Source: Plasmodiophora brassicae
Taxonomy: Eukaryota; Endomyxa; Phytomyxea; Plasmodiophorida; Plasmodiophoridae
Assembly (NCBI GenBank): GCA_039704465.1
Contig: JASFAU010000005.1
Coordinates: 1,240,001 to 1,304,000, forward strand
DNA length: 64,000 nt
Direction of reading: 5' to 3'
How positions within the stretch are numbered: position 1 is the stretch's first letter; each line of letters starts with the position of its first letter. Shown here one piece after another: positions 26,867 to 35,106 of the stretch. Made by a program: the position numbers and the translations under genes. The notes below the pieces were generated by a model. The model made no database searches, was not told the origin of the DNA, and saw only the letters and a program-made list of their open reading frames with translations.

Positions 26867-28354
26867 ATGAATTCGGTGGAGATCGACAGCAGCAGCGCGT
26901 CGTCCCGGGTCCCCAATGACGACCTTTCGAAGAGCGGCCAGGATACCGACGACGAGGGACATGCAATGTCGGCGACGACGCGGGTCGCGTGCCTTGCGGT
27001 CGTCGCCGTTGCCGCATGGCAGTCCGTGTCGCCGATCGAGACGTACATGCACGAATTCCTGGCGACCGACAAGATGATCGCCAACGCGGACATCACCAAT
27101 CATATCTGGCCAGCGTATTCCTACGCCTTTATGTTCACCTTAATCCCGATTGTCTACCTCAGCGAGTACTGGACCGGCTATGCCTTCATAACCGCACTAG
27201 GTCGGGTAACGTGGCCCGTCGCTCGCAGGCAGCATACTGACATAGTCTGGCCGCAGCGCTTATTCTTCGGCTATGCACGACGTTCCTGCAAGAATTCTCT
27301 CCGATGGCTGCTCTCTGGCCGCATCAGTCTGCCTTGGGGTTGTTCGGCATCGCTTCCGCCTGCAAAGTGTCCTTCAAATCGTTCATCTACGTTATTGTCC
27401 CCCGGCGAGTCTTCTTCGCCATCACTGGGTACGTCCGCGCCGCCAACCTGGTCGCTCACGTTCTCGGCGGTACCATCGGCTTCTCGCTTCGAAAGCATCG
27501 CATCAGCTGGGTGACATTCTACACGATTCAGCAGGCGTGCCTGTGCGCCGCGTTATTCGCTTTTGGAATCGCGGTCTACGCCCTGCAGAAAGGCCCGCGG
27601 CAGCATGCATCGCCGACGAGGCCGTTCGCTCCTCGTATTCGGTCACGTGCAGAACTGTACGACCTCGTCCATGGCATATTCCCGTCACGACTGGTGAATA
27701 TCTGGAGCGTATGGATTATCGTTGCGCATGCTGTTTACGGGTTGGTCCTTGTCAACACGTCAACGCTGTTCTTCAATATCGACCGCAACGCCCATGTAGG
27801 CAACGCTCACACATCGTAACCATGTCGTTGCTGTTGCTGATGCCGTTTTCAGTTGAACGGGGTTGTTGTATCGTGTGCGAGGCTATGTGCTGCCGGGGCC
27901 GCTGTTGTTGTTGCCAGATGTCCCCGACGGCTCCTGGATCAGAGTTTGGTACTGATGACCACCGGTTCCATCAGCACCGGCCTGCTGATCGCGTTGGCGG
28001 GTCTGACAACCCATATCACGACCTCGTATGCGAGCCTGATCGCCATTCACGCTGTGTTTGAGCTATGCTTCTGTGTCGGAAATGGCGTCGTTGCTTCCAG
28101 GTACCCCGTGAATATAATATCCTGTCTAAAACGCAGGTTTATGACTGGCTGTGTCCAGGATTCCAACCTCCATACGAGGCATCGCTATATTCGTGAACAC
28201 GCTGTTCTGCCTGATTATGCAATCCGCTCTGCAATTTGTCTGCGGCCCGCTGCTGGAGCTGTCGGTGCACTCGAAGTTCTCCACGTTCGCGTTGATCATG
28301 GTCTCGCTCGGTACCGTCCTAGCTATCACGGCCCGCTGTACAAGACCAGCGTAA
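26867..28354 (+). CDS. SLC19-family folate/thiamine transporter
   Basis: Multi-pass carrier of the reduced-folate/thiamine (SLC19, MFS-like) family. After a hydrophilic start come SPIETYMHEFLATDK and PAYSYAFMFTLIPIVYLSEYW (family: first extracellular loop and TM2), SFKSFIYVIVPRR, TGYVRAANLVAHVLGG, LVNIWSVWIIVAHAVYGLV, GSISTGLLIALAG and a final IFVNTLFCLIMQSALQFV helix pair. Introns interrupt it at about 27190-27250, 27790-27940 and 28100-28160. Which vitamin it carries cannot be told from sequence. Uptake of thiamine or folate would fit an organism that cannot make them. Confidence 0.75.
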
Positions 28355-28610: not shown

Positions 28611-29821
28611 ATGAGTTCGTGCGCGACGGCTGCATTGCTGATGCTGATGATGGTGACGTCGATGATGAAGCCGGGCGTGCCACCGGGGCTTCCTTTGCCT
28701 GGAGGCGCGGGGAAACGCCTTGAGATCACATTCGAACCTGGTTCCACCAACCTTCTCGCCATTCCGCAACAGACATGGTCCGATGTGCTCTCGCATGCCA
28801 AATGTAGCATCATGTAACAGATATCGCTGTCTTGTGCCGCACGTGCACGTTCTCAACCAGCATTAGGAGCATTATGGATTCCAAGACGGCGAGGGCGTTC
28901 GTCCTGTCGGGGAGCAGTCTGATTGTGCGGTCCAATCAAGTCATCTTGAAGACATGCGGCCCAACGAGTTTGCTGTCTGCTCTTGAGCCTGTCATGGAAA
29001 TGGCGGGCAAGCAGGCCAATCTCTCCAATATCATGTTCACTCGTGGTCTGGTCGCTTCATCGGTGCGGCCTATACGTGACATACCTTGCGGTGGCCAATT
29101 GACAGTGCGAGTCTCCAGAATCGTCAACCGAGCCCACACAGGTCGTTCGCTGACGAGGTTCGGTTCCTCGACAGGAAATATGATGGGCAATCGATTGCGA
29201 TCGACAACGGGTTCCACATGTGGACGATGTCGCCAACGCCCTGCTCCACCGTGTTCGAAGTTGTTATGCGGGACCTGCCACAGGATGTCATGAAAGCGTC
29301 CGCGTATGAGTTCAAGTTCTCTCCAAGTCGGGGAGGCGATCGTTGGGTCGAGTACCTGGTTCCGGGCGCACGCGTCAATGGGCAATGGTTCCAACCCCGC
29401 GGATACATTTGCAACGCGTTCGCCGGCAACGACGACCACATGTTTACGATTCACATCGCACAGCAAACGTCGTGCTCCTACGTTACCTTTGAGAGCAACT
29501 TCATCGACAAAGGAATGGTCGGTACCTGTTTCAGCTTGTATGACCCGTACGTGTAACCTGACAGTGTATAAGTTGGAACGCGTGGTCCAATTCTTCCGTC
29601 CCGGCACGCTGACCATTGTGACCATTCCTGGCACGGAGACAATGGCGAATGGTATACGTGGTCTGCTGCTGTCAGGCAACGCTCTGACTTGCGAGACAGA
29701 CTTTGCTGCTGGCGGCTATGCGGGGCGTCACGCCAGCATGGTAGACGTCCTCGACAGGTACACTCGCACATCGACGGCCTACCATCCGCACCTGGGTTTC
29801 CAGTCTTTCCAGCGCCTGTAA
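28611..29821 (+). CDS. AdoMetDC-like paralogue lacking key catalytic residues
   Basis: Homologue of S-adenosylmethionine decarboxylase, but probably inactive. Exons 28611-28813, 28867-29062, 29119-29517 and 29573-29821, with introns of 53, 56 and 55 bp, give 348 residues with no frame break. Human numbering: F7, E8 and E11 of FEGxEK are changed (PGGAGK); E67 just before the pyruvoyl Ser68 is Gly (LSGSS); C226 and Ser229, needed for self-processing, are changed (RGYI for CGYS). Ser68, Cys82 and His243 remain. A tandem copy with the usual residues follows at 30095. This layout recalls the trypanosomatid AdoMetDC-prozyme pair. Confidence 0.88.
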
Positions 29822-30094
29822 CGCGCGTCTCGTAGATGCCCCCCAACCAACAAGAAGTACAGTACCTATACAATTGGCACCGGCGCCGATGTTCGGCCAA
29901 GAACATTCTCTGGGCCGCCGCGTCAGCCCACGCAGTCCGCAGCTGCGTCGTGCGACACGGCGACGCGGTGACCCCGTAGTGGGGGCACGGCCGAGGTGGC
30001 ATATTAGGCGCCCCCGAGGGAGTCGGAGGGTCGGCGACTCGGGGGCCCCCTTTATTCGGATATCGTCGTCGTTGCTGACGCGTGTCCCCTGCCG
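29822..30094 (+). promoter_or_regulatory. spacer/leader of AMD1 with GC-rich hairpin
   Basis: Short region between the two AdoMetDC-like genes. GCCCCCGAG at about 30011 pairs with CTCGGGGGC about 20 nt later, a stable 9-bp stem. An upstream ATG at about 29838 opens a frame of about 47 codons. AdoMetDC mRNAs in plants and animals carry regulatory upstream ORFs, so translational control is possible but not shown. Confidence 0.35.
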
Positions 30095-31389
30095 TTGTAT
30101 GCACCGCGGCCACCGTCGCCCGACGCGCCCGTTCGACAGCTGCTGCCGAAAGTGGATGCCCTCCTGACCACCGCCATGATGCTGATGATGAACGAATCGG
30201 TGCCGCCGGACATCCCGTTCGAGGGCGCCGAGAAACGCCTGGAGATCACGTTCGAGCCTGGCTCGACCGACCTTCTTGCCATCCCGCAGCAGACCTGGTC
30301 CGACATACTTTCCCACGCCAATTGTGCTATCATGTAACGCGTTGTTGTTGCCAAGTCACGTTCAGCCTGAGCAGCATCCTGAACCATTGCCCCGCTCAGG
30401 AGCGTTATGGATTCCCCGACCACGAGGGCGTTTGTCCTGTCGGAGAGCAGTCTGTTCGTGCGATCCAACCAAGTCGTCTTGAAGACGTGCGGCACGACGA
30501 GCTTGCTGTACGTAGTTCAGCCGATTCTTATTGCGGCGGGCACTCGCGCCGTCCTCATCAACATCCTGTTCACACGCGGACTAATTATGTCACCCGTAAG
30601 TCCACGCGAGGGAGCGCCTTCTGCATAGCGAGCTCCGCGCTCCCCATCGAGGAAGACGACGAATTAACGAGGACCCCGTGCATCTCCAGGCCCTGCAACC
30701 CAGCCCGCACAGATCGTTCGCTGAGGAAGTGGCCTTCCTTCAAATGGAGTTCGATGGGCAGCCCGTCGCGATCCACAACGAGTTCCACATGTGGGCAACG
30801 GCTCCGTCGTCCTGCTCGACGATGTTCGAGGTGGCCATGCGGGATCTGCCGAGAGATGTCATGGCGAAGTTCTACTACGACTTCAAGTACGTCTTGACCG
30901 CGCCTATGGACCTGCGTTTCCAACATGACGACAGGGGCTGTGAGTCGTGGGTCCAGGACCTCGTTCCCGGCGCTCGCGTCGATAGCCAGTGGTTCGAGCC
31001 CTGCGGGTACAGTTGCAATGCGTTCGTCGGCAAGACCGACCGCCTGTTTACGATCCACATCACTCCGCAACCATCGTGCTCCTACGTTAGTTTCGAGAGT
31101 AACTTCGTTGATATGGACATGGTCGGTTCTCCTTCCGCTCTACCTGTCCGAATACTTACCAACGGACTAGATGGCACGCGTCATTCGGTTCTTCCGTCCT
31201 GGCAAGCTGACGATCGCTACGATCAATGGCCCTGGCATGATGTCGGTTGTCGCGGAGGGTTGTGATGGAGGGCATGACCCTGGGAGCCGCATCGAGGAGC
31301 CCGACGACATCGACCTGGAAGGATACGCCTGCACGTTCGCGGCCCATCTGGCCCACGTCGATTTCCAGTCGTTCCACCTTTGCGTCTGA
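30095..31389 (+). CDS. AMD1: S-adenosylmethionine decarboxylase proenzyme
   Basis: Pyruvoyl enzyme that makes decarboxylated AdoMet for spermidine and spermine synthesis. Exons 30095-30333, 30400-30595, 30690-31121 and 31171-31389 give 361 residues; removing a possible extra 48-bp intron at about 30890-30937 gives 345, closer to the paralogue. Keeps FEGAEKRLE, the self-cleavage site LSESS, KTCGTT, CGYS and the His in TIHIT. The residue matching human E247 is Gln, as in the upstream copy. An alternative start at about 30177 is possible. Same strand as and 273 bp after the dead-looking paralogue, so co-expression is plausible. Confidence 0.92.
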
Positions 31390-31442
31390 CGGTGTCGCGT
31401 TGAACCCCGCCCGGCTCAATACATTGCCGGACGTGGGTTCGT

Positions 31443-33095
31443 TTATGAATGGGCGACATTCTCGACGTCGAACCGTCTCGAGACGAACGCGTACACGTCG
31501 TCGTCGATGTTCCTCTGGTCCGGGACCTTGAGCTGCTCGTGGACGGCCGCCATGAGGTTGAACGCCGACTCCTCATGGACTCGATGGATCGTCCACTGCA
31601 GGCGCTCCTGGAATGTCGGCGACTTGTTGCGCTGCTTCCTACGATACCTGCGCGCCTCGCCATCAGCCAGGATGGCATGGGGTAGCACGCGCGACCTAGC
31701 CGGGTCGACCTTTCGACGAACGTGACGACATTGTTACGCGCCGCGTACCGCGTGTGGAACGCGTCCGAGACGATGGAGATGGGGATGGCGAGCATGAGAA
31801 TGCCGACGAGGACGGCGATGGCGGCGACGAGCTTGCCCCAGCCGGTCACCGGCACGATGTCCCCGTAGCCCACCGTCGTCGACGTGATCACCGTGAAGTA
31901 CAGCGACGTCGGTATGCTGACGAAATCGCTGGGTAGGCCGCGGCAGGCCGGTCAGCAACGTTGTCGGGAGGGGGTAGGGCGCGACCACGCCCCAACACGT
32001 ACCTGCCCGGGGCGTTCTCCGCCAGGTACATCATGCTGGCCAGGGTCAGCGTCGCGATCCCGAATATGAAGCCCATGATCGCCAGCGGCAGCCGGCTCTT
32101 CATCAGGACGGCGGACAGCATGGGCACCCAGGCCAGGTGCCGCATCAGCTTGACGATTCGCAGGACGCGCAGCGACCGAAGGCAGACGAACGCGGTCGAT
32201 TGCGTCACCGACTGCAGCGCGATCTGACGTTCGGCCTGATCGTCAGCGCGTCTGGACGTCGCAGGCACCAGTGCGACCCATGGGTACCGAGTCCAGGCCC
32301 AGCTCGACGTAGAACGGGACGATGACGATGAGGTCGATCATGTTCATCTTGGATTGGAAGATCTCGGCCGGCGTGCGGCAGGTGACCGCGTGCAGGCCCA
32401 GCTCGAACGTGAACATGGCCGTGCAGGCCAGCTCCATCCAGAAGTACCACGCCGGCGACGTGGCAACGTTCGCCATCGACCCGACGCACGCCGACACCAC
32501 CGACACGACGCTGCGCGCGCCACCACACGCTCAGCGGGGGCGGGTGCGCCACGCGCGATCGTCTGCGCGCTTACATGACCGCCATGGACACATAGGTGAA
32601 GCAGAGCGCGTAGATCGACGACCCGGCGTTGTTGGTGGCGTTCCAGATCCAGACGCGCACGCCCGGCAGCGTCACGTACTGCTGCGTGCGCTCCAGGGCG
32701 CGTTGCGCCGAGATGCGCGCCATCAGCGCCGGCATCAACTCCGGGTGCTGCTGCTGCTGCTGCTGGTGGTGGTGCGGCGCACGCACCTGGTGCCGGCGCT
32801 CGCACCGGTCCGCGTAGTCGTGCGCGATCCGCCGCCACGTCTGGCGGATCTCCAGCGGCGACCGCGCCTTGCGCCCCATGGACGCCGGCCTGGTCAGCGC
32901 CGGGCGCACGCTCGCACCCGCACCCGAGCTCATCGACCCGGACAACCGCTGCCGCTGCATGCCCGGCGTCTCCCCGACCGTCTTCGCATGGCCCAGCACC
33001 GGGCGCTCGTCGCCCTCATCGGCGTGCTCGGGCACGGGTGCGAAGGACAGCGGGCGGTGCGGTTTGACGAGCACCACGTGCTCCTGCCGAGGCAT
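31443..33095 (-). CDS. voltage-gated potassium channel (Kv, six-TM)
   Basis: Six-TM Kv-type channel subunit in the plasma or organelle membrane. In minus order: a long N-terminus with a His/Gln run from CAG-type repeats (about 32745-32775), S1 rebuilt across a junction (FTYVSMAV), S2 MELACTAMFTFELG, S3 MIDLIVIVPFYVELG, S4 RSLRVLRIVKLMRH with regularly spaced charges, S5 LAIMGFIFGIATL, selectivity filter TTVGYGD (about 31865-31885), S6 LVGILMLAIPISIVSDAF. The C-terminus YRRKQRNK...VENVAHS ends at 31443. Introns lie in S1, between S3 and S4, before the pore and after S6. S6 lacks the Pro-Val-Pro bend of animal Kv1-4. No T1 domain recognised. Starts about 107 bp from the divergent LRR gene. Confidence 0.85.
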
Positions 33096-33202
33096 CCCGT
33101 CGACGATGTCCTGCCTGGTGGTACCCTGAATAGATTCGGCCGCGATCGAATCTTCCGGCGCAGGCGTGGTTGGACAGTGGAATCATATCGCTCGTCGTGG
33201 CC

Positions 33203-35106
33203 ATGCGCCAACGCTATCGGCGGCGATCGCCCTGCCTGCTGCTGGCGACGTTCGCGTCCGTCTGCGTGACGGCGACGTTGTCGCTGCCGCCGCTGTGCAC
33301 GTTCCTGGGCAATGCGCTGTCCACGGGCGTCGTGCTCGGCACCGTCCAGACGATCCTGAGCCCGCCGGCCAACCTGTCGGCCCTGCTGCCGTCCATCTGC
33401 CGACTGTGCCCCTACATCAACGCGACCGGCGTCGTCGTCCAGCTGGACGCCATCACCTATTTCAACGTCGCCCGCCTACAGCTGACGGCGAACGCGCTGA
33501 CCAACCAGCCGTTCGCCTGCCTGACCGCGCTCCGAGGCATCGACCTGTCCGGGAACGGCATGGCGACGGGGCCGCCGCCCGACCTGTTCCGGGCGTTGCC
33601 GGCGCTGACGACGATCCTGCTGACCGACAACCAGATCGGCACGCTGGACCCGAGTACGTTCACGGCGCTGTCGTCGCTGACCACTCTGTAATGGCGAATG
33701 CGCGCCCACCCGTCGAGCGCGCTCACCAACGGACGCAGGTACCTGAATCGGAACGCGCTGGCGACGCTGCCGTCTGGACTGTTCCAAGCGAACACGGCCC
33801 TGAAAACGCTGTAAGCGACGCGCGTTCGGCGCGTTGTGTACGAAGGCACGCGTGACGAATGTATGGCCAGCATCCTGGATGAGAACCCGTTGCTGTCGTG
33901 GCTGCCGCCTGCTTTGTTCAACCCGGCGCACCCGCTGTCCTTCATGTCGGGCGCCACTGTCCCTCCCACACACACACACACGTGCTGTGCCCTGAATTCG
34001 CATGCCTAGATCGTTCGCGCTGACGCCGTCGTTGACGTGCTTCCCGGCGGTGCCGTCGTCGACGCAGCTGTGGTCGGGAGGCGCACCCGTCCCACGATGT
34101 TCTCCGTTGGCCAACTTCCACGACATGTACTCGGGCAACGCCTCGTAGGTTCCCATGGGGCGCGGTCCCTGTGTTTGCCCCCCGATCTGACCCAGCACGA
34201 AGGGTGCCGGCGGTCAGCGTTACGATCACGATGAACAACGTGTACATGGCGCCCGTCAGCGAGTTCGTCGCCGACCTGGTGATCGCGACGCGGATCGATA
34301 GTGCCCGGGTCGTGAACGTCGCCGCTAGCACCGTGTCCGGCACGACCGAAGTCACGTTCCAGGTCCTGCCGCGTACCCGGCAGGGGCAGGTCCTCAGCGA
34401 CGACGTGGGCCGCATCATCACCAGCACGCTGCTGAACGAGAACAGCGCTGTGCTGACCGGCGACGCTCAGCTGACCGGCATCCTCGACCAGCTGTCCACC
34501 GTCAGGACCGTCCCGAACGTCAACGTGACGTTCTGCCCCGACCGGAGCGCGTTCCTGTCGGTCTGCCCCGCACCGACGTCGCCGCCGCTGATCACGCTGG
34601 CGTTCGTCCTGAACGTGTCCATGGTGCTGGGCGCGTTCCTGGGCGGGATGGTGCCCGGCGCCTGCTGCATAGGGCTGCTGTCACGCCGATGGAGGCGAAG
34701 GCGGCCGCCGACCGACGCCCAGTGGTCGCGCCCGGTCCCGTACGGGACGCAGACCGGGCCATCGTCGGCGGCCTCGTCGGTGAACAACAACAACAACAAC
34801 AACAACGTGCCGTCGATGAAGGCGCTGCGGGCGGGGATGTCGTCCCCGCCGCCGATGGCGCACGTGACGTCGTCGTTCCGGCAACCGGATCAGGTGCACC
34901 GGGAGTCGGCGCCCGTCGTCCGGATGGAGAGGAAGAGGGCGGCGGCGGCGGTGGCGGCGACGGGCCGGTCGAAGAGCAGCAGCGCGCAGGCGGCCAGGTC
35001 GGCGTCGGCTGTCGGATCCAGCAGGGCGGCCAAGAAATGGGACGCCGAGCGCCTTGCGAACCCGTGGATCGCCAAGGACATGGACGCCAGCGACTTTGAG
35101 ATCTAA
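33203..35106 (+). CDS. leucine-rich-repeat transmembrane receptor-like protein
   Basis: Type I membrane protein. Signal peptide from MRQRYRRRSPCLLLATFASV, then a Cys-containing cap and LRRs of the L-x-x-N-x-L type (LRGIDLSGNGMATGPPPDLF, LTTILLTDNQIGTLDPSTF, then YLNRNALATLPSGLF in its own exon at about 33740-33812 and another at about 33871). Each later LRR sits on a separate exon between short introns. After an extracellular domain with VTITMNNVYMAPVSEF comes one TM (TLAFVLNVSMVLGAFLGGM), a basic stop and a low-complexity tail with a poly-Asn run (AAC repeats, about 34787-34805). A CA repeat lies in an intron at about 33967. No kinase domain. Ligand unknown. Confidence 0.75.

Follow-up and report, generated by a model that had tools for sequence, protein, structure and literature searches.

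A tandem AdoMetDC gene pair in the clubroot agent Plasmodiophora brassicae: a constrained, residue-depleted copy beside a residue-complete enzyme

The tandem locus and its gene models

The clubroot agent Plasmodiophora brassicae (Rhizaria, Endomyxa, Phytomyxea) carries a tandem pair of genes for S-adenosylmethionine decarboxylase (AdoMetDC) on the plus strand, at positions 28611-31389 of the window, by which we mean the whole stretch of 64,000 nucleotides that was analyzed. Copy 1 encodes 348 and copy 2 encodes 334 amino acids, each in four exons, and the two proteins are 59% identical. Both genes are interrupted by three GT-AG introns at matching positions with phases 2, 0, and 0. The exon coordinates below bear out an earlier sequence-only reading of the locus, which had described two four-exon copies with matching introns and open frames. 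Residues carry human numbering, as read off an alignment to human AdoMetDC.

28611-28813, plus strand: copy 1 exon 1; F7, E8, and E11 lost; the most constrained stretch starts at GKRLE
28867-29062, plus strand: copy 1 exon 2; E67 replaced by G; S68 and C82 kept
29119-29517, plus strand: copy 1 exon 3; C226 replaced by R and S229 by I; H243 kept
29573-29821, plus strand: copy 1 exon 4, ending in a stop codon of its own; the FQSF close to the C-terminal end also occurs in copy 2
29741-30139, plus strand: joining intron (399 nt) of the deposited model P0001, needed to fuse the copies; doubtful
29822-30175, plus strand: spacer and, probably, the 5' leader of copy 2
30176-30333, plus strand: copy 2 exon 1; F7, E8, and E11 kept
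30400-30595, plus strand: copy 2 exon 2; E67, S68, and C82 kept
30690-31121, plus strand: copy 2 exon 3; C226, S229, and H243 kept; includes 30887-30934
31171-31389, plus strand: copy 2 exon 4

Both proteins belong to the family according to the PF01536 profile, which scores copy 1 at 164 bits and copy 2 at 224 bits (cut-off 22.2); in either copy the match extends no further than position 297-298 of the 343 in the profile. The equivalog cut-off of TIGR00535 (233 bits) is missed by both, with 133 bits for copy 1 and 170 bits for copy 2. Three splice donors are unusual, namely GTGCGG in intron 2 of copy 1 and GTCGGT in intron 3 of either copy. An assembly artefact is ruled out, since the best protein match, a P. 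brassicae protein deposited at NCBI (P0001), comes from another assembly, whose longest contig is given as 1,544,657 bases (1,471,147 for the contig of the window), and its exons contain both of these reading frames. A third AdoMetDC locus was looked for in the whole 25.3-Mb assembly and not found, either by profile (five exon matches) or by a search of the genome with the copy 2 protein (seven matches), all matches lying at this pair. The profile search returned 0 matches in 14 control genomes, so the controls give no gauge of its sensitivity. Searched for as a repeat, the stretch 29822-30139 of the spacer matches itself alone in the genome, and the single inverted repeat listed for the spacer is a small palindrome at 29931-29954.

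Several neighbors of the pair are recognizable in the window. Two open frames at 26867-27816 match successive parts of the Reduced folate carrier profile (PF01770) at 44.8 and 25.4 bits (cut-off 27) and probably belong, as exons, to a single transporter gene that lies upstream of copy 1. At 31223-31891 on the minus strand, the first 50 residues of an open frame match an ion-channel pore (PF07885, PF00520); this channel gene apparently converges on the end of copy 2. Leucine-rich repeats (PF13855) are found at 33170-33688.

Residue loss and constraint in copy 1

Both copies were compared with 45 homologues, which were hand-picked from 179 listed proteins (P0003-P0181) with no row dropped after counting. 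A column was taken as near-invariant if at least 90% of the 45 homologues share one residue; there are 66 such columns, one of them the initiator Met. Copy 1 has lost the family residue in 20 of the 66 and copy 2 in 6, all of which are common to both, leaving 14 private losses in copy 1 and none in copy 2. The private losses comprise F7, E8, E11, E67, C226, and S229 on the one hand and F71, T84, P120, F192, D219, T245, P246, and S254 on the other. The first six had been named in the sequence-only reading and are all real: copy 1 carries L, P, G, G, R, and I at these positions, respectively, with the family residues all present in copy 2. E8, E11, E67, C226, and S229 are invariant in all 45 homologues and F7 in 44 of them. 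Copy 1 retains E15, S68, K80, C82, E178, F223, H243, and E256; copy 2 retains F7, E8, E11, E67, S68, C82, F223, C226, S229, H243, and E256. Taking S68, E67, S229, and H243 (processing) together with C82 (general acid) as the mark of an active AdoMetDC, copy 2 has all five residues and copy 1 lacks E67 and S229. The losses in copy 1 affect 5 of 9 active-site or processing positions versus 9 of 51 positions elsewhere (Fisher p 0.025), a post hoc comparison in which the nine positions (F7, E8, E67, S68, C82, F223, C226, S229, and H243) were picked after the losses had been seen.

Like human AdoMetDC (AMD1), an active homodimer, copy 2 keeps the catalytic set, and it matches human 1MSV at 139.5 bits. 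Unlike AMD1, both copies have Q at E247, as do 5 of the 45 homologues, have S at D174, and lack part of the segment before D174. Judged by its residues, copy 2 is an AdoMetDC whose catalytic set is intact, yet which is itself divergent.

Among the positions lost in copy 1, F7 and E67 are reported to position or bind AdoMet (PMC3686867). The human S229A mutant cannot be activated, whereas the Thermotoga enzyme mutated at the equivalent of S229 is still activated, and the equivalent of E67 can serve as general base (PMC3975893). Copy 1 has neither residue, and the double loss of E67 and S229 should block pyruvoyl formation in copy 1, which is likely to be catalytically dead.

The frame of copy 1 appears to be maintained nonetheless. 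The dN/dS comparison proposed in the sequence-only reading was run and indicates constraint on copy 1, with omega at about 0.15-0.21; these values compare two copies in one genome, with dS high and rough. Pairwise omega by codon maximum likelihood is 0.148 over 319 codons (dN 0.26, dS 1.78) and 0.164 over 252 core codons, and counting over the core gives 0.21 (bootstrap 0.14-0.30, with 0 of 2000 replicates at or above 0.5). An omega of about 0.5 is the floor expected if copy 1 had been neutral throughout, and this value is rejected both over 319 codons (2 delta lnL 48.4) and over the 252 core codons (35.6). Selection is detectable in every exon, most strongly in the 36 codons from GKRLE onwards in copy 1 exon 1 (pN 0.08 vs pS 0.62, p 2e-8, 86% identity) and least in later exon 4, which is 35% identical between the copies beyond the profile match. 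The FQSF end of copy 1 (17 codons) shows a weak signal (pN 0.29, pS 0.64, p 0.037). Compared with shuffled sequences, alignments of the exons score 9 to 36 SD above expectation and those of the introns 0.3 to 2.6 SD; the inner part of intron 1 has a weak excess (2.7 SD, 6 of 500 shuffles), and an excess over shuffles is also seen for the 3' flanks of both copies, taken as 300 bases each (4.1 SD, 0 of 200). Neither a broken frame nor neutral evolution, the marks of a pseudogene, is seen in copy 1, and it is best read as a maintained pseudoenzyme under purifying selection.

Origin of the pair and comparison with known systems

We placed the pair in a midpoint-rooted tree of 47 rows (the 45 homologues and both copies), which holds no known trypanosomatid sequence and no prozyme. 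Copies 1 and 2 are sisters with support of 100/100. The branch to copy 1 measures 0.80 and that to copy 2 about 0, values that are rough given the very long stem, so the tree puts the amino-acid change roughly on copy 1. The stem of the pair, which spans 2.87 changes per column as far as the midpoint root, is the longest in the tree, and the tree groups long branches in places (P0080 with P0135). Together with the six common losses, the very long stem shows that both copies departed from the pattern of the family either ahead of the duplication or shortly afterwards. Copy 1 is 25-30% identical to the 45 other proteins, and copy 2 is mostly 33-39% identical to its listed full-length matches.

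Searches with copy 1 reach few proteins. In the PDB, phmmer with copy 1 finds human AdoMetDC at 98 bits and does not match the T. brucei prozyme chain at E 0.001; a family profile that includes both copies reaches this chain at 52.5 bits. Of 4705 candidates in a protein search with copy 1, only 3 passed E 0.001, a small number that is probably caused by the word filter, since phmmer finds human AdoMetDC at the score given. The 59% identity of the pair, the three common introns, and the six common losses indicate that the pair arose by its own tandem duplication, separate from the one that gave rise to trypanosomatid prozyme. A relative with the same pair was not found; no Spongospora or Polymyxa protein is named among the matches in three lists, two of which cover the best 120 and most rows of which give no organism.

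The closest known parallel is found in trypanosomatids. The AdoMetDC of T. brucei alone is nearly inactive and autoinhibited by its N-terminus, and binding of prozyme, which goes along with cis-trans isomerization of P31, frees the enzyme about 1000-fold (PMC5201418). Prozyme has been described as occurring only in trypanosomatids (PMC5201418, 2016), and the same is stated for the AdoMetDC-like protein ADL (PMC3686867). Like trypanosomatid prozyme, copy 1 is catalytically depleted, lies beside an active AdoMetDC, has lost E67 and F7, and is predicted to be unprocessed. The arrangement also resembles that in T. brucei, where the genes for AdoMetDC and prozyme are numbered as neighbors (Tb927.6.4460 and Tb927.6.4470; PMC6221367, PMC2562514). 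As in prozyme, residues of autocatalysis are missing in copy 1 (E67G, S229I), though S68 is kept. In trypanosomatid ADLs, E67 and S68 are reported as not conserved, and the Leishmania ADL lacks S68 and F223 (PMC3686867); unlike the latter, copy 1 keeps both S68 and F223. Copy 2 differs from the T. brucei enzyme as well. It has A in place of the P31 equivalent (FEGAEK instead of FEGPEK), a position at which 18 of the 45 homologues have P; it has 14 residues before FEG compared with 27 before F28 in T. brucei, and it lacks the region of the DSDHY motif of trypanosomatid AdoMetDC (PMC5201418). Prozyme stems from a trypanosomatid duplication, whereas copies 1 and 2 are each other's sisters. Copy 1 is thus not a member of the prozyme family, though it probably works like prozyme. 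The sequence-only reading had proposed a prozyme-like arrangement of independent origin. A full-length, residue-depleted copy under purifying selection beside a residue-complete enzyme agrees with the first part of this proposal, and the rhizarian host and the pair's own duplication agree with the second; the kept S68 and the Ala at the P31 position set the pair apart from prozyme, so that the proposal is supported in part.

Two further systems make use of dead paralogues or domains in this pathway. The N-terminal domain of human spermine synthase likewise has a dead AdoMetDC-like fold that is used in dimer formation, but it derives from a bacterial class 1b AdoMetDC and is fused to an aminopropyltransferase (PMC12803844), whereas copy 1 is of the eukaryotic type (PF01536). 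Deoxyhypusine synthase (DHS) of trypanosomatids follows the same principle, a dead paralogue activating an enzyme of the polyamine pathway (PMC3663545). It is a different enzyme, and unlike the trypanosomatids with a dead DHS paralogue, P. brassicae has one DHS locus, found in six exon matches, with no second one seen in the genome.

Possible role of copy 1 in polyamine synthesis

The explanation we prefer would start from a tandem duplication of the P. brassicae AdoMetDC gene, after which copy 2 would have remained a self-processing decarboxylase. Copy 1 would have lost AdoMet binding and self-cleavage and would then have been held by selection as a pseudoenzyme. Unprocessed copy 1 would pair with processed copy 2, like AdoMetDC subunits in other eukaryotes, and the pairing would raise the activity of copy 2 or make it controllable, i.e., a prozyme-like device would have evolved a second time. 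We therefore lean, with modest confidence, towards copy 1 acting through copy 2, most likely as its heterodimer partner; we infer dimerization with copy 2 and its activation rather than inhibition. Since copy 2 carries Ala in place of P31, the mechanism of T. brucei could not operate here in the same detail, and copy 1 would more likely form a heterodimer that responds to another trigger, or stabilize the processing of copy 2. A kept dimer interface between the copies is only putative because the late C-terminal part lies outside the profile match and the late strand beta15 forms part of the interface in the T. brucei dimer (PMC5201418). The retention of S68, C82, and H243 in copy 1 is not to be demanded of a dead subunit and would count against the heterodimer explanation. 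In a bolder version, which is doubtful although conceivable, the enzyme would depend obligately on its dead partner, the switch would be other than proline isomerization, the chains would also be deliverable as a spliced fusion, and the whole would be an independent invention in Rhizaria.

Alternatively, copy 1 might be a pseudoenzyme with a job of its own apart from copy 2, for instance in sensing AdoMet or polyamines, or it might lower the activity of copy 2. Constraint tells of the protein's importance and not of its function, and copy 1 might still bind some ligand, given that it retains S68, C82, H243, E15, E178, and E256; the Leishmania ADL has been reported to bind AdoMet and putrescine (PMC3686867). 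We consider such a role rather unlikely. Most characterized eukaryotic AdoMetDCs are dimers (PMC5201418), the tandem position favors co-production of both chains, and prozyme, the best-studied dead AdoMetDC, works by binding its active paralogue. Moreover, the inactive AdoMetDC-like domain of human spermine synthase is indispensable to that enzyme through its role in dimer formation (PMC12803844).

The copies might also be made as a single polypeptide of 566 residues with a dead and an active domain, the stop codon of copy 1 and the spacer being spliced out. P0001 is that protein: it fuses both copies, all of its residues map exactly to the window once GT-AG introns are allowed for, and it requires exactly the same unusual donors as the two-gene models. 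However, P0001 begins only with the second exon of copy 1 and hence omits exon 1, with its 36 highly constrained codons, and it removes the FQSF end, which shows weak coding constraint. Its joining intron is far longer than the average P. brassicae intron of 60 bp (PMC4471660). By score, no second tandem protein is apparent in the best 120 of 2381 matches (the next at 167 vs 1315 bits), a list in which no domain number is shown. The homologue alignment of P0001 covers mainly the copy 2 half. Two further introns of P0001, at 29652-29699 and 30887-30934, are 48 nt each with GT-AG ends, open, and divisible by three; they are coding in the two-gene models and could be retained introns. The constraint on exon 1 and on the FQSF end of copy 1 argues for two ordinary genes. 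The fusion as sole product was set aside on the same grounds, copy 1 exon 1 and, weakly, the C-terminal end looking coding. We regard the single polypeptide as improbable, but a fused transcript of both copies may exist as well.

Slow decay of copy 1, as an old duplicate whose frame is open by chance, is very improbable and already largely refuted. Copy 1 does evolve faster than copy 2, and no transcript has been assigned to it by itself. Yet omega 0.5 is rejected, and 348 open codons and three usable introns persist despite half of the pairwise dS amounting to 0.56-0.89. In neutral simulations at 0.05 substitutions per site, the copy 1 frame stayed open in 0.9% of 1000 runs with indels (assumed at 10% of substitutions) and in 25% without; at 0.7 substitutions per site it stayed open in 0 of 1000 runs, with or without indels. 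Any switch of copy 1 to neutrality, even a recent one, must therefore have been short. The statement of the sequence-only reading that an open frame with intact splice sites argues against simple decay agrees with the rejected omega and with the simulated neutral frames.

It is hardly credible that copy 1 forms its pyruvoyl group by another route and decarboxylates something else: S68, C82, and H243 are kept, but C226R and the loss of E8 would alter the substrate pocket, which we take these two residues to line. The loss of F7 would alter it further (PMC3686867), and E67G and S229I remove both aids to serine activation (PMC3975893).

As for the rest of the polyamine pathway in P. brassicae, ornithine decarboxylase (ODC) is encoded at one locus with a frame of 439 codons, and spermidine synthase at one strong locus of 303 codons, with a marginal domain match elsewhere. 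The profile of ODC antizyme (PF02100) has no match in the genome and none in the controls either. Four of the homologous proteins (P0123, P0124, P0131, and P0151; 810-978 aa) combine AdoMetDC and ornithine decarboxylase domains (PF01536 with PF02784 and PF00278). A gene annotated as "S-adenosylmethionine decarboxylase proenzyme-like" (Pldbra_eH_r1s011g06084), which could be either copy, is expressed in planta 27 days after inoculation (PMC8298192, Table 3). Its values, matched by column order of that table, range from 81.67 to 130.85 units over four conditions and are lowest in Yudal at low nitrogen (PMC8298192).

The literature search found no paper on P. brassicae together with prozyme, and in papers on P. 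brassicae and AdoMetDC, a dead paralogue is absent from titles and abstract openings. The evolution of prozyme from a homodimer has so far been argued from a single case. If the interpretation preferred here is true, a second, independent dead AdoMetDC would serve as a replicate, indicating which residues must go and which must stay, and showing whether the enzyme can be activated in the absence of the proline switch. In addition, it would mark a candidate point at which this obligate parasite of crops controls its polyamine synthesis.
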